A model generated the notes under the pieces. It searched no databases. It had not been told where the DNA came from and worked only from the letters and a program-made list of their open reading frames with translations. Position numbers and translations under genes: made by a program. A DNA stretch of 64,000 nucleotides, taken from positions 1 through 64,000 of the forward strand of contig JAFGIN010000056.1 of assembly GCA_016929595.1 (NCBI GenBank). Reading direction: 5' to 3'. This document shows positions 946 through 57,641 of the stretch, in pieces; the first letter of the stretch is position 1, and every line of letters starts with the position of its first letter. The stretch is from Chitinispirillaceae bacterium. GTDB taxonomy: Bacteria; Fibrobacterota; Chitinivibrionia; Chitinivibrionales; Chitinispirillaceae.

Positions 946-3900
946 TCAGGCAGCCTGCAGAGCCGCACCGTCTTCGAATTTAACAGACACGATCGTTGAA
1001 ACACCCTTCTCCTGCTGCGTAACTCCGTACAGAAGATCCGCAGCTTCCATAGTACGTTTATTATGAGTAATAACAATAAACTGTGTCTTCTCTGCAAACT
1101 TTCTCAATATTTTGACAAAACGACCGATATTGGCATCATCAAGCGGTGCATCGAGCTCATCGAGGATGCAGTACGCTGAGGGCTTTACCAGATAAAGCGC
1201 AAACAGAAGACTTATCGCTGTCAGTGCGCGTTCTCCTCCGGAAAGCAGTTGAACACCACGCATCTTCTTTCCGGCAGGGCGCACATTGATATGAATCGGC
1301 GCTTCAAGCGGATCAACATTTTCTTCAAGTGAAATTGTAGCCTCTCCACCTTCAAAGAGCGTCGTGAACATGTCAGTGAAATTTTTCTGAACCTGTTCAA
1401 ACGTTGTCAGAAACTGTGCACGTGCTTCTTTGTCGAGTTTTGTAATCGCTTTTTCAAGTTCATCAACTGCGTTCTGAAGATCGTCACGCTGAGTTGTGAG
1501 CTCATTGAGACGTTTACTTTCGTTTTCGTAATCCTCAAGAGCAGCCATATTGACCTGTCCCACATGCTTTATTCTCTCTTTAAGCATCTGGATATTCTGG
1601 AGAACTTCACTATCCTCTTCCTCAATGATCATGATTCCTTCAGAAGGCGACTCAAGATCTATTTCGTACGCTTCCCAGATCCTCTCACGAATTCTGCGCT
1701 GTTCCTGCTCATCACGGGTCTGCTTGATTTCTGCATCATGGAGCTGATTTGAAACTTCGTTATTCTCTCCCTGATCTGCTCGTGTTGACTTACGCATATC
1801 TTCAATTTCGATAAGTATACCATTGTATGTTTCACGAACAACATCACGCTGTTTTTCAAGTTCGATCCGATTTTCACGCTGTACCTCAAGCTCACTCCTG
1901 AGCCCCTGAAGTTTTTCGCCCAGATCACCAATTTCACTATTGGATCGGTTCTTGTCTTCCGCCTTGACCTGTTTCTTTTCTGCAAAGGACTTCATGTCAC
2001 GACCGAGACGTTCAATATCCTGACGGTCCTGATTGATCCTGTTTTTAAGCCCATGCGCTTCAAGCTCGATATTCTTCTGGTGCTCAATCAGTTTACGGCG
2101 CTGAGCATCCATCGAAAGGACCTCGCTACGGGCGGCTTCGACCTTTTCTTCAAGGGTGTCCCGACGATTTTCGGTTGTCGCGACTTCAGCTTCACGCAGC
2201 GTGATCTCTTCTTCCATCTGTGTAATACGGGAGTTGAGCTCTGAGAGTTCCGGATGGAGTTTCTGTACCCTTCCGAGAATATTCTGGATCTCATTCTCAT
2301 AATGTTTGATGGTAGTTTGCTGCTCCTGCTGCCTGCGCTGTCCTTTATTGATGTTATCGTCAACCTCGATCAATGCCGACTTGGCTTCATCACGGTTAAT
2401 GATACAGTGATCTTTTTCCTCAATGATTTTAAGGTATTCGGAATCAAAACGAACTATATCAGCATTGAGTTTTTCCATCTGCTGTTTACGCTGAAGAATA
2501 CCAGCTTTTTCCTTGACCGGATTACCTGCGATAACCACACCATCCTGTCTGCAGATGATACCTTCACGGGATGCAAAAAGGTATGTACCGGAGAATTTCC
2601 TTGATGCCTCGATCGCTTCGGCATTTGTTTCGGTAATTCGTATGTGCCCAAGGAACTGCTGCGCAAGTTTATCACATCCGTCAGCAATCCGAACCATGCT
2701 GATCGCGGGTATTCCCGGTACAGTTGCATCATCAAAAGCACTTGTATTCAAACGTTCAAGGGATATGATTCCCGCCTGACCTAAACGCCCCTGCTGAAGA
2801 TGTCCGGTTGCATCAAGCAACTGTGCTTCAGTATCAAAAACAACCGACTGAATGGTGTTACCCAGAATCTTCTCGAATAGACCAACCGACGATTCGTCGT
2901 TTACCGCAATGAGATCAGCGATAATACCTTTAAGACCGGGTAATTTACGTGTAAGTAGTTCTTTAACACCCGCATCATACCCCTCAAATGATGATTCCAG
3001 TCCGGCAAGAAATTTCAGTTGCGATTTTGAGGTGGAGATCTGAGCTTCAAGAAGTTTCTCATTTTCAAGAAGTCTCTGATACCGCTCATCCTCTTTTTCT
3101 ATCTGCGCAAGTAACACCTCACGTGATGCATGAAGAGTACGGTTTTCTTCATCAGCATCTGCAAGCTGTTTTCTGCATACCGTAACGGCATCCTGATACT
3201 CTTCCATACGGACTTCAAGGTTCTGAACCTCGCGCTGATCACGGTCATGTCGTTCGATCGCATTGCTCAGGTTACTTTTAAGCGTGCTCAAACGATTGCG
3301 CACTTCACCAAGCTCATTGATAATCTCTATCTGATCGCGTCCCAGCTGATCGGCATCTGCACGACGCTGCTGCATTTGTACATCAAACCGTGCCAGCTCA
3401 TCATTGGCTCCATTGACACGTTCAAGGCTCTTCTGAAGCTGTGTTTCACGTTCAATAATACTCAGTTCTATCTGAGAACGCAGCTGAGCTGCATCATCGA
3501 TCTGCTTTTCAAGTGACTGCATATCCTGATCAAAACGCTGCACATTCTGAGTAAGGTTTGCACTTCGCTCATTACATACTGAGATATCTCTGTCAAGTCG
3601 TACAATTTTCTCGTTGGCTTCACTGACCACCCGTGATGCGATCTCAAGCTCTTTTTCCTTCTCAAGTGCCTGAAGCTGCATTTTCTCGATTCGGGATTCA
3701 GCAGTGGCAATGCGAGCCTTGGCCGTTTCTTTACGACTTTCGAGCTCCTGAATCAGTACCTTGCGGTTTTTAAGTGTTTCAGCAAAGACCTGATACCTGC
3801 GATTTTCAAACCCGACCTCAAGCCCCTTGAGATCCTCATAATAACTCTTGTACCGTTTTGCCTTTTCCACATGTCGAGCAAGCATTCGCACCTGACGGTC

Positions 3901-4494
3901 CGCTTCCTGAACCTTATCGTTGATTCGAAGAAGGTCCTGCCGTGTTTTCTCAAGCTGCCGCTGACTGTCTTTTCGGCGCTGTTTATACTTACCTATCCCT
4001 GATGCTTCCTCAAAAAGAACCCTCCGCTCCTCAGCCTTATCACTGAGAATGGAATTGATCATAGTATTCTCTATAGTAGTATATGCGCTGCTGCCGACAC
4101 CTGTATCGAGGAATAGATTATGAATGTCCCGCAGACGACACGGAACTTTATTGATCCGGTATTCACTCTCACCGCTGCGATAAACACGCCGGGTGATCGA
4201 AACCTCACGGAATTCAACGGGTAAAATACCCCGATTGTTTTCTATAGTAAGAGTAACCTCTGCAATGTTGAGTGGAGAGCGGTTCTGCGTTCCGGAGAAA
4301 ATCACATCCTGCATACTGCTGCTTCGAAGCATCGACGCCTTAGTTTCACCAAATACCCAGCGAATCGCATCAACAACATTACTCTTACCGCAACCATTTG
4401 GCCCGATAACAGCAGTCATACCTTCACCAAACTGAAGTTCTGTTTTCTCTGCGAAGGATTTGAAGCCGAAAATTGTAAGCTTCCTGAGAACCAT
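946..4494 (-). CDS. smc: Chromosome segregation protein SMC
   Basis: At 1182 aa this has the full length and architecture of bacterial SMC, the ATPase of the condensin-like SMC-ScpAB complex that organises and segregates the chromosome. The N-terminal head has Walker A GPNGCGKSN at residues 31-39. Two long coiled-coil arms rich in Glu, Lys, Arg and Gln flank a hinge at about residues 500-660. The C-terminal head carries the ABC signature LSGGERALTAI (from residue 1084) and Walker B CILDELDAPLDDAN (about 1109-1122), followed by the switch-like VITHNKRTME. The ATG at 4494 gives the canonical start MVLRKLTIFGFKSF. No scpA, scpB or ftsY lies next to it. The upstream 436-bp intergenic region carries one copy of a recurring short element (4771-4842). 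Confidence 0.97.
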   Translation of the reverse strand: MVLRKLTIFGFKSFAEKTELQFGEGMTAVIGPNGCGKSNVVDAIRWVFGETKASMLRSSSMQDVIFSGTQNRSPLNIAEVTLTIENNRGILPVEFREVSITRRVYRSGESEYRINKVPCRLRDIHNLFLDTGVGSSAYTTIENTMINSILSDKAEERRVLFEEASGIGKYKQRRKDSQRQLEKTRQDLLRINDKVQEADRQVRMLARHVEKAKRYKSYYEDLKGLEVGFENRRYQVFAETLKNRKVLIQELESRKETAKARIATAESRIEKMQLQALEKEKELEIASRVVSEANEKIVRLDRDISVCNERSANLTQNVQRFDQDMQSLEKQIDDAAQLRSQIELSIIERETQLQKSLERVNGANDELARFDVQMQQRRADADQLGRDQIEIINELGEVRNRLSTLKSNLSNAIERHDRDQREVQNLEVRMEEYQDAVTVCRKQLADADEENRTLHASREVLLAQIEKEDERYQRLLENEKLLEAQISTSKSQLKFLAGLESSFEGYDAGVKELLTRKLPGLKGIIADLIAVNDESSVGLFEKILGNTIQSVVFDTEAQLLDATGHLQQGRLGQAGIISLERLNTSAFDDATVPGIPAISMVRIADGCDKLAQQFLGHIRITETNAEAIEASRKFSGTYLFASREGIICRQDGVVIAGNPVKEKAGILQRKQQMEKLNADIVRFDSEYLKIIEEKDHCIINRDEAKSALIEVDDNINKGQRRQQEQQTTIKHYENEIQNILGRVQKLHPELSELNSRITQMEEEITLREAEVATTENRRDTLEEKVEAARSEVLSMDAQRRKLIEHQKNIELEAHGLKNRINQDRQDIERLGRDMKSFAEKKQVKAEDKNRSNSEIGDLGEKLQGLRSELEVQRENRIELEKQRDVVRETYNGILIEIEDMRKSTRADQGENNEVSNQLHDAEIKQTRDEQEQRRIRERIWEAYEIDLESPSEGIMIIEEEDSEVLQNIQMLKERIKHVGQVNMAALEDYENESKRLNELTTQRDDLQNAVDELEKAITKLDKEARAQFLTTFEQVQKNFTDMFTTLFEGGEATISLEENVDPLEAPIHINVRPAGKKMRGVQLLSGGERALTAISLLFALYLVKPSAYCILDELDAPLDDANIGRFVKILRKFAEKTQFIVITHNKRTMEAADLLYGVTQQEKGVSTIVSVKFEDGAALQAA

Positions 4495-4770
4495 TCTAAG
4501 CTACCCCCTGAACCCTTTAAACGGGTTAAATCGTAATATCCATTCAACCACTACGGATTGATCTTCAAACCATTTCAAGATACAATATATTGGGCTCAGA
4601 GTCAAGGGGCCTGTTAAAATATCTCTTCTGAATGATCGAATAGGTGAGAAAAATCCCTCGTAAGTTTCTTGCAAAAAAGATGTTATAAAAATATCAGTAA
4701 ATACATTTTAAATCAATCTTTTTTTTAAGCCAGTTATAGAGTAAAACAAAATCAGGTTTTAATAGTTTTT

Positions 4771-4842
4771 GCTCAAATACCCTGTCAGGGGTCACAGGAC
4801 CACACAATTGTCATTATGACATATAATTTTGTTATTAAACCC
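4771..4842 (-). repeat. Intergenic element, copy A
   Basis: This roughly 70-bp segment aligns with 56319-56393 and, more weakly, with 33446-33508. Shared parts are a core CCTGTCAGGGGTCACAGG that can fold as a short hairpin, a following ACACAATTG, and AAACCC about 60 bp after the core. In the orientation where all copies agree it points toward smc, 277 bp away. The copy also contains a perfect TGTCAT-T-ATGACA palindrome. The function is unknown. Confidence 0.55.
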
Positions 4843-4875
4843 ACTATAAGTGTGAGCGGGACGAGAAACATAAAG

Positions 4876-32288: not shown

Positions 32289-32320
32289 GGGAGGAACGTC
32301 ATTACAGCTACGTTCCTCCC
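32289..32320. terminator. Hairpin between convergent genes
   Basis: GGGAGGAACGT pairs perfectly with ACGTTCCTCCC. The right arm overlaps the end of the minus-strand propeller gene. No strong T-run follows on either side, so it may act as a two-way but weak terminator. Confidence 0.6.
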
Positions 32321-33387
32321 CCTATGCTTACACAGACTACATACAGATTCCGGGCTTTGAAGTCCATGTTAAACGATGTCAACTGAATCAAATTATACCC
32401 TGCATTTCTCTTACCGGCATCGATCGTTCTGACCAGTTGCCCTGTAAGAGTGAAGATTGAGATCGAAACAGATTGTGGAGAATCAAGATACAGCTCTATT
32501 TTTCTATTATTTAAAGATTGAACTTTGAAATAGCGTTGCTTCTGCAGCATTGAACGTACGGCAACTGGATTTACCGCAGATACTGCCGATTGTCCATGCT
32601 TGCAGTAAGCAAGGCCATACGCGCTTGCTACCCAGAATCCATCAGGATCAGATGCAACAGTTTTTATTTCAGAATCAATTATTCCAGAATTAGCGGATGT
32701 AAATAAAGTACCTGTAGAACCATTAAAACGGTACAACCCATCACCTCTGTATCTTTTTGCCAATGCCATGAAATAGATGTCATACGTCAAATTTATTCTA
32801 TTAATCCTACACCACAATTCACCTTTTTTAATGTCATAATGAAGAGGAATCAAAAACGATGCTGCATCGATTCCGGTTTCAAAATGCTGCCACTGTGATC
32901 CATCAAACCGACCGATTCCAGCTTTTTGTGTAACAATCCACACTGTATCTCCACCACCACCCTTGATTTCCTCTACCGTATCATTAACCGGAACCTTATC
33001 ATGTAACTTCATTTTCTCCCACTTTCCATTCTGATACCGGAACAGCTCCTGCGATCCGATCAATGCCCATACAGTTCCGTTTTCTGCTATATCAATTGCG
33101 ATAACCCTTTTTGTTGTATCCTCTCCAGGATAGATAATTTCGCTGCATTGCCCGTTTTCCATAGCATACATATGATTTCCACCCCTGTAAGTGTAGGTAC
33201 TGAAAAACCATATATTCCTAACCGGATCGAAACAGGTCAGATTACACACATCAGCCTTGACTGTACATTGCGTTGCAGACCATAATCCGCCAGGTAACAA
33301 ATCACTCTTCATTGCTGCATGCAGAATCATCTCAGCGGCAGCATTATTCATAAAACCAGCTGCATTGATCCTGCCTTGTTTATCCAA
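32308..33387 (-). pseudogene. 5'-truncated propeller protein with type IX-style C-terminus
   Basis: The readable part (359 aa from a TTG at 33387) contains repeated WxFSTYTY/GTVWALIG/DTVWIVTQ/GFWVASAYGL-type blades, like two-component-regulator propellers. A C-terminal module (SISIFTLTGQLVRTIDAGK...AGYNLIQLT) resembles type IX or FlgD-like sorting ends. There is no signal peptide, no ATG and no ribosome-binding site. The frame stays open upstream to 33498 with plausible protein sequence (WTLSEPFSRASAVDIKLDKQG) and then hits a stop. A secreted protein of this kind should start with a signal sequence, so I read it as a gene that lost its 5' end. Copy C of the recurring intergenic element lies across the break. 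Confidence 0.55.
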
Positions 33388-33445
33388 TTTAATATCAACT
33401 GCAGAAGCTCTTGAAAATGGTTCCGATAATGTCCAGGTTCCAGAA

Positions 33446-33508
33446 TGCCTCTCAGAGGTAACAGGGTCACACGGAACTTGAATTCGGAATCTTATTTTTT
33501 AAAAACCC
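33446..33508 (-). repeat. Intergenic element, copy C
   Basis: This copy shares CCT-TCAG-GGTAACAGGG-CACAC with the copies at 4771 and 56319 and has AAACCC about 60 bp after the core. The core can fold as a short hairpin (CCTCT/AGAGG). It lies between the hppA terminator and the truncated propeller gene, overlapping the latter's open frame. Confidence 0.45.
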
Positions 33509-33520
33509 TACTGGACTATG

Positions 33521-55035: not shown

Positions 55036-55884
55036 ATGGAAAAAAGAATGATAATTCCTGATGAGACATCATTGGAGCTTTATCTGAAGGAGATCAGCCG
55101 AAATCAGGCATTACCTGCAGAAGAAGAGGCGCGACTGGCAGTTAAAATTAAAGTTGGAGATAAAAAAGCACTCGAAAAACTGATCAAGGCAAATTTACGA
55201 TTCGTTGTGAGCGTCGCCAGAAACTATCAAAACCAGGGTTTACCACTTGGTGAATTGATCAGTGAAGGAAATCTCGGGCTTATACAAGCAGCAAAACGTT
55301 TTGATGAAAAGCGAAACTTTAAATTTATCTCCTATGCAGTCTGGTGGATTCGCCAGGCAATACTGAGAGCGCTTGCTGACCGTTCCCGTATTACAAGAGT
55401 CCCTCTAAACCGTATCGGAATCATCCATAAGGTTGGAAGAACTCAGAGCAGACTGGAACAAAAATTCCGACGCATGCCTACCATGGAAGAGATCGCTCAG
55501 GAGTTGGGACTTGCTGAAAGTGATGTCATGGAGATTCAAAAAATTGGTAACCGCTATCTTTCTCTGGATACCCCGGTACAGGCTGATGACAGTTCCGAAC
55601 TTATCGATCTTCTTCAGGACGAGAATCAGGAGATGCCCGACACTCGTCTTATCGAAATGTCGATGCAGGATGGGGTTAACAAAATTCTTGATACACTCAA
55701 TGACCGCGAAAAAAAAGTATTAAAACTTTATTTTGGTGTCGGTGAGGATACACCACATACTCTGGATGAGATTGGAAAAAGGTTACATCTGACCCGTGAA
55801 CGAGTCAGGCAAATTAAAGAAAAGGCAATCCACAGACTTAAGAACTCCTACCGCAGCCGCTGCCTGAAAGTATTTACCGACTAA
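55036..55884 (+). CDS. rpoD: Primary-type sigma-70 factor (short RpoD/SigA-like)
   Basis: At 282 aa this factor contains regions 1.2 to 4 without the 1.1 extension or non-conserved insertion. Regions 2.1-2.4 include LIKANLRFVVSVARNYQNQG, LISEGNLGLIQAAKRFD and FISYAVWWIRQAILRALAD; region 3 includes RMPTMEEIAQELG; region 4.2 has the helix-turn-helix TLDEIGKRLHLTRERVRQI. Short primary sigma factors of about 285 aa are typical of Bacteroidota and some other FCB phyla, so this could be the housekeeping factor; a group 2 factor is the alternative. GAGAGGAG precedes the ATG and a terminator follows, so it is monocistronic. Confidence 0.85.
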   Translation: MEKRMIIPDETSLELYLKEISRNQALPAEEEARLAVKIKVGDKKALEKLIKANLRFVVSVARNYQNQGLPLGELISEGNLGLIQAAKRFDEKRNFKFISYAVWWIRQAILRALADRSRITRVPLNRIGIIHKVGRTQSRLEQKFRRMPTMEEIAQELGLAESDVMEIQKIGNRYLSLDTPVQADDSSELIDLLQDENQEMPDTRLIEMSMQDGVNKILDTLNDREKKVLKLYFGVGEDTPHTLDEIGKRLHLTRERVRQIKEKAIHRLKNSYRSRCLKVFTD

Positions 55885-56202: not shown

Positions 56203-56318
56203 ACTATTCTGACCCCTCCTGCCTTTATGATACCATCGGTAGATTCTGTTTTTCAACATCTAATATACTATGGTTTTCAGGTAATAGAGCATAACAACAG
56301 GATGTTCTGATACCTTTT

Positions 56319-56393
56319 GATCAAATACCCTTTCAGGGGTAACATGGCTACACAATTGCCATTAATTTCTGTATACTATATTGTTAAACCCCA
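56319..56393 (-). repeat. Intergenic element, copy B
   Basis: This is the best match to the copy at 4771: TCAAATACCCT-TCAGGGGT-ACA-GG-ACACAATTG-CATTA is shared with about 80 percent identity over 45 bases, followed by AAACCCC about 60 bases beyond the core. On the minus strand the core reads ACCCCTGAAAGGGT, a small hairpin. Confidence 0.55.
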
Positions 56394-56474
56394 TAAATGA
56401 TTTCTTTATGGACGTATCGTTACGGTTAAGTTATTTTTAGAGTACTTCTCTAAAACTGAAAGCGTGGAAAATCT

Positions 56475-57641
56475 GTGACTGTTGGAATTTCGTCGAAATT
56501 AAAAAAGACTAAGAAGCGCAGAATGCTGATGGTCTACTCCGGTGGTGGCTTCCAGGGGAGCATTCAGTGCCTCTACATTTTCATGCAGCAAAACACGTGG
56601 GAACTAATCTCACATATATCACTGCCATTCACCCAGCGCATTAACACACTATACGAAAAAATCCAGAACGCATCGACGGATCGCTTTACAATCAATGACC
56701 TCTCAGTACTCGATTATAGAATTACTCAATTTTGTCTTGAGGCGATAAAAACCCTTATTACTCCACTTCCTACCCCACTTAAAAAACCACACTACATAGT
56801 TTTTAATAAACCGCAGATTTGGCGGGGACTCAATGGTGAAGGACAAGAACAGAACTATTGGGATTTCTCATCCGGTGATCCCCAGCTTATTGCATCGACA
56901 ATTAAAGTACCGGTATTTACCGATTTTATACGGAATAATATTCTCGCAGGCGGCCCTGGAATTCTACCACTGAACCCCGGTACTCTCTCCATTGCATCAC
57001 GTATAAAAGGTAAGGTTATCCTTATTAACATCGGAATGATCTCACATGTTACAATCGTCAATGTAGACAATTCTCAGATTCTTGCGGATTCAGATGTTGG
57101 ACCTGGCACATGCCTTCTGAATCAATCTGTTTCCGATATTAATTCATCAGAAGCTTTTGACAGAGACGGTACAATGGCTTCTCAGGGAAAAGTTGACAGT
57201 GATTGTGTCGAGAGCCTTGCGTCATTCAACTGGTTTGGGATAACGCCACCAAAATTCACCACCGCCGAAACATTTACCGGACTTCTGAAACATGATTCTC
57301 TTCAGGCACTTTCACCACAGGATAAAGTCGCAACACTAACGGCGTTAACAGCCCGTATTATATATGATTTTTGTAAAAAAGAGTATATTTCACAGGATAA
57401 CTCCTTTTCAATTTACGTTTCTGGCGGAGGCGCCAATAATCAAACCCTGCTTGAGTACCTCACCACCTATTTTGATCCAGTACCTGTGAAAACAATTGAA
57501 GATATTGGTGTTCCGCTGGATCTATACATCCCGCTTGCATTCGGATTGACAGTAGATGCCTGTGTAACAGGAAATGCAGTACCCTGGCAATCTGGAAGCA
57601 CCCCATTAGTGTCTTCAATCGGGCGCTGGGTCACACCATAA
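56475..57641 (+). CDS. Divergent AnmK-like (anhydro-N-acetylmuramic acid kinase family) protein
   Basis: This 388-aa protein has the overall pattern of AnmK: GDPQLIASTIKVPVFTDF, LAGGPGILPLNPG, LINIGMISHVTIVN, DVGPGTCLLNQ, FDRDGTMASQG, WFGITPPKF and the ATP-site loop IYVSGGGANNQTLLEYL. AnmK phosphorylates and opens 1,6-anhydroMurNAc during cell-wall recycling. Two key features are altered. The N-terminal ATP loop, usually SGTSxDGxD, reads SGGGFQGS and lacks the Asp. The catalytic DFRxxD reads DFIRNN, keeping only the first Asp. It may therefore be a divergent kinase or an inactive paralog. The GTG at 56475 gives a basic 16-residue lead-in. Confidence 0.75.
   Translation: MTVGISSKLKKTKKRRMLMVYSGGGFQGSIQCLYIFMQQNTWELISHISLPFTQRINTLYEKIQNASTDRFTINDLSVLDYRITQFCLEAIKTLITPLPTPLKKPHYIVFNKPQIWRGLNGEGQEQNYWDFSSGDPQLIASTIKVPVFTDFIRNNILAGGPGILPLNPGTLSIASRIKGKVILINIGMISHVTIVNVDNSQILADSDVGPGTCLLNQSVSDINSSEAFDRDGTMASQGKVDSDCVESLASFNWFGITPPKFTTAETFTGLLKHDSLQALSPQDKVATLTALTARIIYDFCKKEYISQDNSFSIYVSGGGANNQTLLEYLTTYFDPVPVKTIEDIGVPLDLYIPLAFGLTVDACVTGNAVPWQSGSTPLVSSIGRWVTP

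Follow-up and report, generated by a model that had tools for sequence, protein, structure and literature searches.

Three short, similar stretches in the window analysed here (the whole stretch of DNA under study, 64,000 nucleotides, contig C120 of the 6.6-Mb, 224-contig draft genome of a Chitinispirillaceae bacterium) raise the question of whether they are signals acting on the neighbouring genes or copies of a mobile repeat. An initial annotation had described them as an intergenic element with a hairpin core that points at nearby genes, and had named a regulatory leader, a protein-binding site and a dispersed repeat as possible readings. The three copies, termed A, B and C, were present as described, all in minus orientation (Table 1). 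The core pattern, with up to three mismatches allowed, matched the window at exactly these three places, and three matches were reached in only 1 of 100 shuffles (expectation 0.31).

The initial annotation had expected further copies from a profile scan of the genome, and these were obtained. R1, a sequence-only model built from 6 copies, found 20 places in the own genome at E < 0.01, 14 of which had not been used in building it. When these places were read in context, the element proved to be longer, with R1 covering just its left two thirds. R2, a second sequence-only model built from 10 copies with copy C left out, returned 25 rows at E < 0.01, which correspond to 20 places because five long copies matched on both strands. 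Copy C was found by R2 in this whole-genome search at E = 7.4e-4. The union of R1 and R2 comprises 22 places with no fixed relation to genes, in agreement with a dispersed repeat, and many of the copies are divergent and half lost.

The corresponding scan of relatives, all of which came from genera other than that of the host, gave no further copies. R1 had no match at E ≤ 0.001 in 30 other genomes (lowest values 0.0028 and 0.0043), R2 had none at E ≤ 0.001 in 39, and R2 with stricter filters had none at E ≤ 1e-5 in the 166 other genomes examined from the phylum. This last absence fits a recent or local expansion. A pattern made of the ends only matched once in each of 2 of 39 other genomes, with 2–3 mismatches, which is near chance expectation.

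Anatomy of the repeat

A complete copy is an imperfect palindrome of ca. 115 bp or ca. 145 bp. Its ends are terminal inverted repeats of ca. 30 bp, TA-YAGGGTTTAACAAAAATAGATTCCG..., whose outer edge is TA in most cases. Read on the minus strand of the window, the left end is TA-YAGGGTTTAACAAAAATAGATTCCGAAATTATT, followed by a spacer and TGTGTGG. The centre is an 8-bp hairpin composed of CACTGTCA or CCCTGTCA, a loop, and TGACAGTG or TGACAGGG, and the right end after a spacer is approximately AAAATATCGGAACGTACTTTTGTTAACTACTCTA-TA, an inverted version of the left end. The extent first given for the element was too short and covered only its middle. The AAACCC noted ca. 60 bases from the core is present, and is now seen to belong to one terminal inverted repeat (GGGTTTAAC, minus strand), the second being located across the core from it. 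The hairpin first proposed, CCCCTGAcAGGG, has to be replaced by CCCTGTCA-loop-TGACAGGG. Different bases had been thought to keep pairing in A, B and C; their pairing is imperfect, and these three copies alone do not demonstrate compensating changes.

R2 matched on both strands in five of the six long copies (C18, C220, C63, C186 and C35; E 1.0e-6 to 0.0034), which demonstrates the palindrome independently of any folding program. In alignments of the two arms, the values of 4 of 16 copies were reached by 0–2 of 500 shuffles, and those of the other 12 were marginal or unremarkable and not individually convincing, indicating that clear symmetry has been lost in most copies. DNA folding of 10 copies gave z-scores between +0.4 and -2.9; stability alone proves little.

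Table 1. Positions of the window copies, their neighbours and the loci with other interiors (window coordinates unless a contig is given)
Feature	Position	Strand	Remarks
Copy A, short form, both ends present	4734..4848	-	R2 match 4734-4846, E = 4.6e-15 (copy in model)
Copy A central hairpin, imperfect	4780..4799	-	sequence and family alignment
Copy A neighbour, peptidase C25 gene	4931-8998	-	
Copy A neighbour, smc	946-4494	-	
Copy C, left end, arm and central hairpin, right end lost	33439..33509	-	R1 match
Copy C core	33447-33466	-	
5'-truncated propeller-like coding sequence, adjoins copy C	32308..33445	-	listed ORF 32308-33387
Copy B, short form, both ends present	56282..56398	-	R2 match, E = 3.2e-19 (copy in model)
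Copy B central hairpin, imperfect	56328..56347	-	sequence and family alignment
Copy B neighbour, sigma-70 factor gene	55036-55884	+	
Copy B neighbour, AnmK-like gene	56475-57641	+	
Other-interior locus L095	C158:25409-25593		family ends, C-rich palindromic interior
Other-interior locus L140	C91:961-1153		family ends, C-rich palindromic interior
Other-interior locus L144	C208:32183-32370		family ends, C-rich palindromic interior

Copy C adjoins a propeller-like reading frame that can be followed upstream to a stop at ca. 33499. From ca. 33445 on, this frame reads ...SGTWTLSEPFSRASAVDIKLDKQGRI..., which by eye is like the later stretch ...GLWSATQCTVKADVCNLTCFDPVRNIWFF.... The name 'propeller' is that of the initial annotation, and the ORF had no match in Pfam. 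Judging from these sequences, copy C is most likely the left half of an element joined to a propeller-like gene whose 5' part is missing; for such a half element at a coding remnant, the stretch of the R2 match that reaches on to 33420 would be due to chance. The repeat in copy C would then mark the breakpoint of the gene truncation.

Six copies (C18, C35, C63, C220, C186:148988 and C47) have the long form, in which the hairpin loop holds an extra 30 bases, TGTCCTCCATAGTTTCAACGAAGGTGGACC or close variants, forming a second hairpin. ACC triplets bracket this block, and in most short copies GTCACC is followed directly by CCTGAC or TCTGAC. A tree of 15 copies (114 columns, the 30-base block omitted) showed two subfamilies, each containing long and short forms, and the long/short label changed 5 times on the tree (4–6 in bootstraps). 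A single clade of short forms was rejected, with a p-value that is to be read loosely since no branch was strongly supported. The short forms are most simply explained if slippage between the ACC triplets has removed the block repeatedly, and repeated gain is a possible alternative.

The exact 23-mer GTCCTCCATAGTTTCAACGAAGG from the long-form loop hairpin was found at four sites in three genomes of other groups (L118, L119 and L120, JAHEIW010000015.1, JANQFQ010000128.1 and JALVIB010000052.1, labelled Deltaproteobacteria, Desulfobacterales and Gracilibacteria). At all four sites it is a free-standing hairpin with the motif GTCCTCCATAGTTTCAACGAAGGAGGA and without the family ends, and the stretch around it had no match in plasmids or phages. 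The own genome contains a single related free hairpin (C172:76-101). The free-standing occurrence in other groups suggests that the loop block may derive from a hairpin repeat that is widespread. In a broader view, the element would be a modular carrier that takes up and loses other hairpins at the tip of its palindrome, with a widespread repeat inserting there and being lost between the short ACC repeats; this appears rather unlikely.

The family ends also enclose other interiors. Three loci carry between these ends the C-rich palindromic interior of a second element type, CCCCCTAAATCCC..., and partial relatives of this type were seen at C24:22718 and C208:7148. At C157:82242 and in C110, the family start is followed by another G/C-rich hairpin. 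The C110 start (L078) and the C87 end (L092), read by eye, have 41 bases in common and probably belong to one element of ca. 390 bp with a G/C-rich interior. The assembly breaks at the C110/C87 repeat.

Relation to genes and regulatory readings

Gene context was examined at 24 places (the 22 places, the weak place C32 and the other-interior place C158) with a simple codon-usage gene caller, which misses short genes such as the 47-aa ORF of the initial annotation. Twenty-two of the 24 places were clear of called genes, and two overlapped a gene end; the family is intergenic to this extent, as had been claimed, but the sequence beside copy C reads as a coding remnant. To the right of the element, 10 of 23 genes share its strand, lying 31 to 521 bp away, and 13 have the opposite strand; to the left, 13 of 24 genes are on the strand of the element. 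This mixed orientation and variable distance are what a mobile repeat gives, not a leader. With regard to a possible preference for insertion behind terminators, terminator-like hairpins were present at 5 of the 24 places as compared to 11 of 600 random stretches of the window, a control that was not limited to intergenic DNA. A scan for promoters and terminators around copy A gave nothing.

According to one reading, the element would be a cis-regulatory RNA leader of the riboswitch or attenuator type controlling the downstream gene. All three window copies have minus orientation and face a gene of that strand, as such a leader would; this common strand is a matter of chance that misled the initial annotation, and neither the strand nor the distance of the right-hand gene reveals a consistent position before start codons across the family. 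The conserved pairing that had been looked for was found in part, in the central stem, where 81.3% of cells pair (20 copies), and one stem pair is A-T in 9 copies and C-G in 9, which would suit a leader, but the covariation lies nearly all in this pair, which separates the subfamilies. Of 500 shuffles, 1 had a whole-stem covariation score as high, whereas 335 had as many covarying pairs and 360 as many pair types. The A-T/C-G exchange largely follows the two subfamilies and may represent few events. Moreover, the RNA folds of 10 copies lay below shuffles by no more than 0.5 to 2.8 sd, the window had no match at gathering score among 4227 Rfam families, and a leader is not expected to be half lost in many copies. 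We consider a leader extremely unlikely.

The pairing of the central stem in most copies could also be explained by a dispersed operator, in which TGTCA-N4-TGACA, a palindrome among the best-kept parts of the element, would be the kept site of a DNA-binding dimer (a regulator or a nucleoid protein). A binding site, however, needs no 30-bp inverted ends, TA edges or other interiors within the same ends; 30 bases separate the half sites in the six long copies, and the copies have diverged, many of them being half lost. An operator is thus very improbable. Integron attC sites, which are single-stranded recombination sites, carry RYYYAAC and GTTRRRY boxes at their ends. Stray attC sites would share with the family a palindromic form, conserved ends and a variable apex, and in some copies (e.g. 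L018) the ends do resemble RYYYAAC...GTTRRRY. By eye, however, most right ends depart from GTTRRRY, as in L019, L020, L021 and L023 with GTTACCT, GTTAATT and GTTAACT, and the copies lie single among ordinary genes and not in arrays. No match to the integron integrase model TIGR02249 exceeded the cut-off in the own genome. On the integrase search and the end sequences, this barely conceivable reading was rejected. The sole candidate scanned, at C39:9841-10644 (L163; an ORF of 439 aa, of which 266 aa were scanned), was below the integron-integrase cut-off and scored best as a XerA-like tyrosine recombinase.

A probable family of miniature transposons

The inverted repeats at the termini, the TA edges and the different interiors within the same ends suggest a transposable element, and a common pair of ends around different interiors is typical of non-autonomous transposons. 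It is highly probable that the dispersed repeat is a family of non-autonomous MITEs of the same kind as Correia, ERIC and RUP elements, which a transposase acting in trans once mobilised. The three window stretches look like decayed copies of this tiny transposon-like repeat, carried along as ordinary hitch-hiker DNA. In the portions of PMC2229807 used here, bacterial MITEs are described as ca. 100–200 bp long with stable stem-loops, inverted ends and TA at the termini, and an excerpt of a 2024 review (PMC10969869) gives the usual definition of MITEs together with their preference for AT-rich intergenic DNA. The present family is short (< 500 bp, namely ca. 115 or ca. 145 bp), non-coding and dispersed over 22 places, and the element is too short for a transposase gene. 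Its terminal inverted repeats, within the ca. 4–30 bp usual for MITEs, are seen in the both-strand R2 matches and the arm alignments, and it is intergenic with no fixed orientation to genes. TA, the candidate target duplication, stands at most outer edges, where it is indistinguishable from conserved end bases, and some copies are without one TA.

An autonomous element with the same ends was not found in the own genome. A search for IS630-type transposases yielded no DDE_3 (PF13358) match, and the 17 regions scanned held miniature pairs only, with no transposase-sized stretch bounded by the family ends. The ends expected of the mobilising IS are TATAGNGTTTAACAAAA...TTCCG. Many bacterial MITEs have no known autonomous partner, as stated in the same portions of PMC2229807. 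A blastn search with one long copy gave no match in plasmid or phage records, and a phage or plasmid origin was dropped on this result. Viral contigs contained 0 matches to the exact end and core patterns and 1 match to a related hairpin variant. A text-string search of the literature gave no record of the core hairpin sequences or a variant.

Based on these features, we propose that the family arose as described below. A TA-targeting transposase supplied in trans, most likely of the IS630/Tc1-mariner type, would have bound the ends of the element and placed copies into intergenic TA sites. The source of this transposase may have been lost from the genome or may be missing in the draft. The extra hairpin of the 30-bp loop would have been lost repeatedly by slippage between the two bracketing ACC triplets, producing the short form several times. 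After insertion the copies would decay, and some, such as copy C, would be cut by deletions.

One of the nearest counterparts is the Correia element (CREE/NEMIS) of Neisseria. As described in the sections of PMC5039591 and PMC2229807 consulted, it has inverted ends starting TATAGNG...TTAACAAAAA, TA termini and an intergenic location, and its long and short forms of ca. 155 and ca. 107 bp (ca. 145 and ca. 115 bp here) differ by an internal block, of 50 bp in Correia. When the family ends were compared with the four Correia repeat variants printed in the excerpt of PMC5039591, one scored above 2000 of 2000 shuffles and a second above all but 5 of 2000; the remaining two showed no unusual resemblance in 2000 shuffles. 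Unlike the present family, Correia elements have an unrelated interior, number ca. 100 to 250 copies (ca. 22 here) and belong to another phylum. A Correia element carries the 26-bp repeat at both ends together with the characteristic core, a combination to which the present family, compared at its ends, did not conform. The family is not a Correia element, and its place among the MITEs rests on features shared with bacterial MITEs. That both families used the same type of transposase is a guess.

The same portions of PMC2229807 describe two further counterparts. RUP of Streptococcus pneumoniae is likewise a non-autonomous intergenic element, of 107 bp, with TA at the insertion site, but a resident IS630-Spn1 has matching ends, whereas no IS630-type transposase was found here. 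ERIC of enterobacteria is an imperfect palindrome of 127 bp, intergenic and with TA termini; it occurs in many genera as compared to one genome here, and is likened to the family by description and not by sequence.

These results remove a candidate riboswitch-like leader and put in its place what looks like an unnamed MITE family of this Chitinispirillaceae bacterium. The family offers a second system, besides Correia, for studying the recurrent gain or loss of an internal MITE hairpin, and its copies flag genome damage such as the truncated propeller-like gene.
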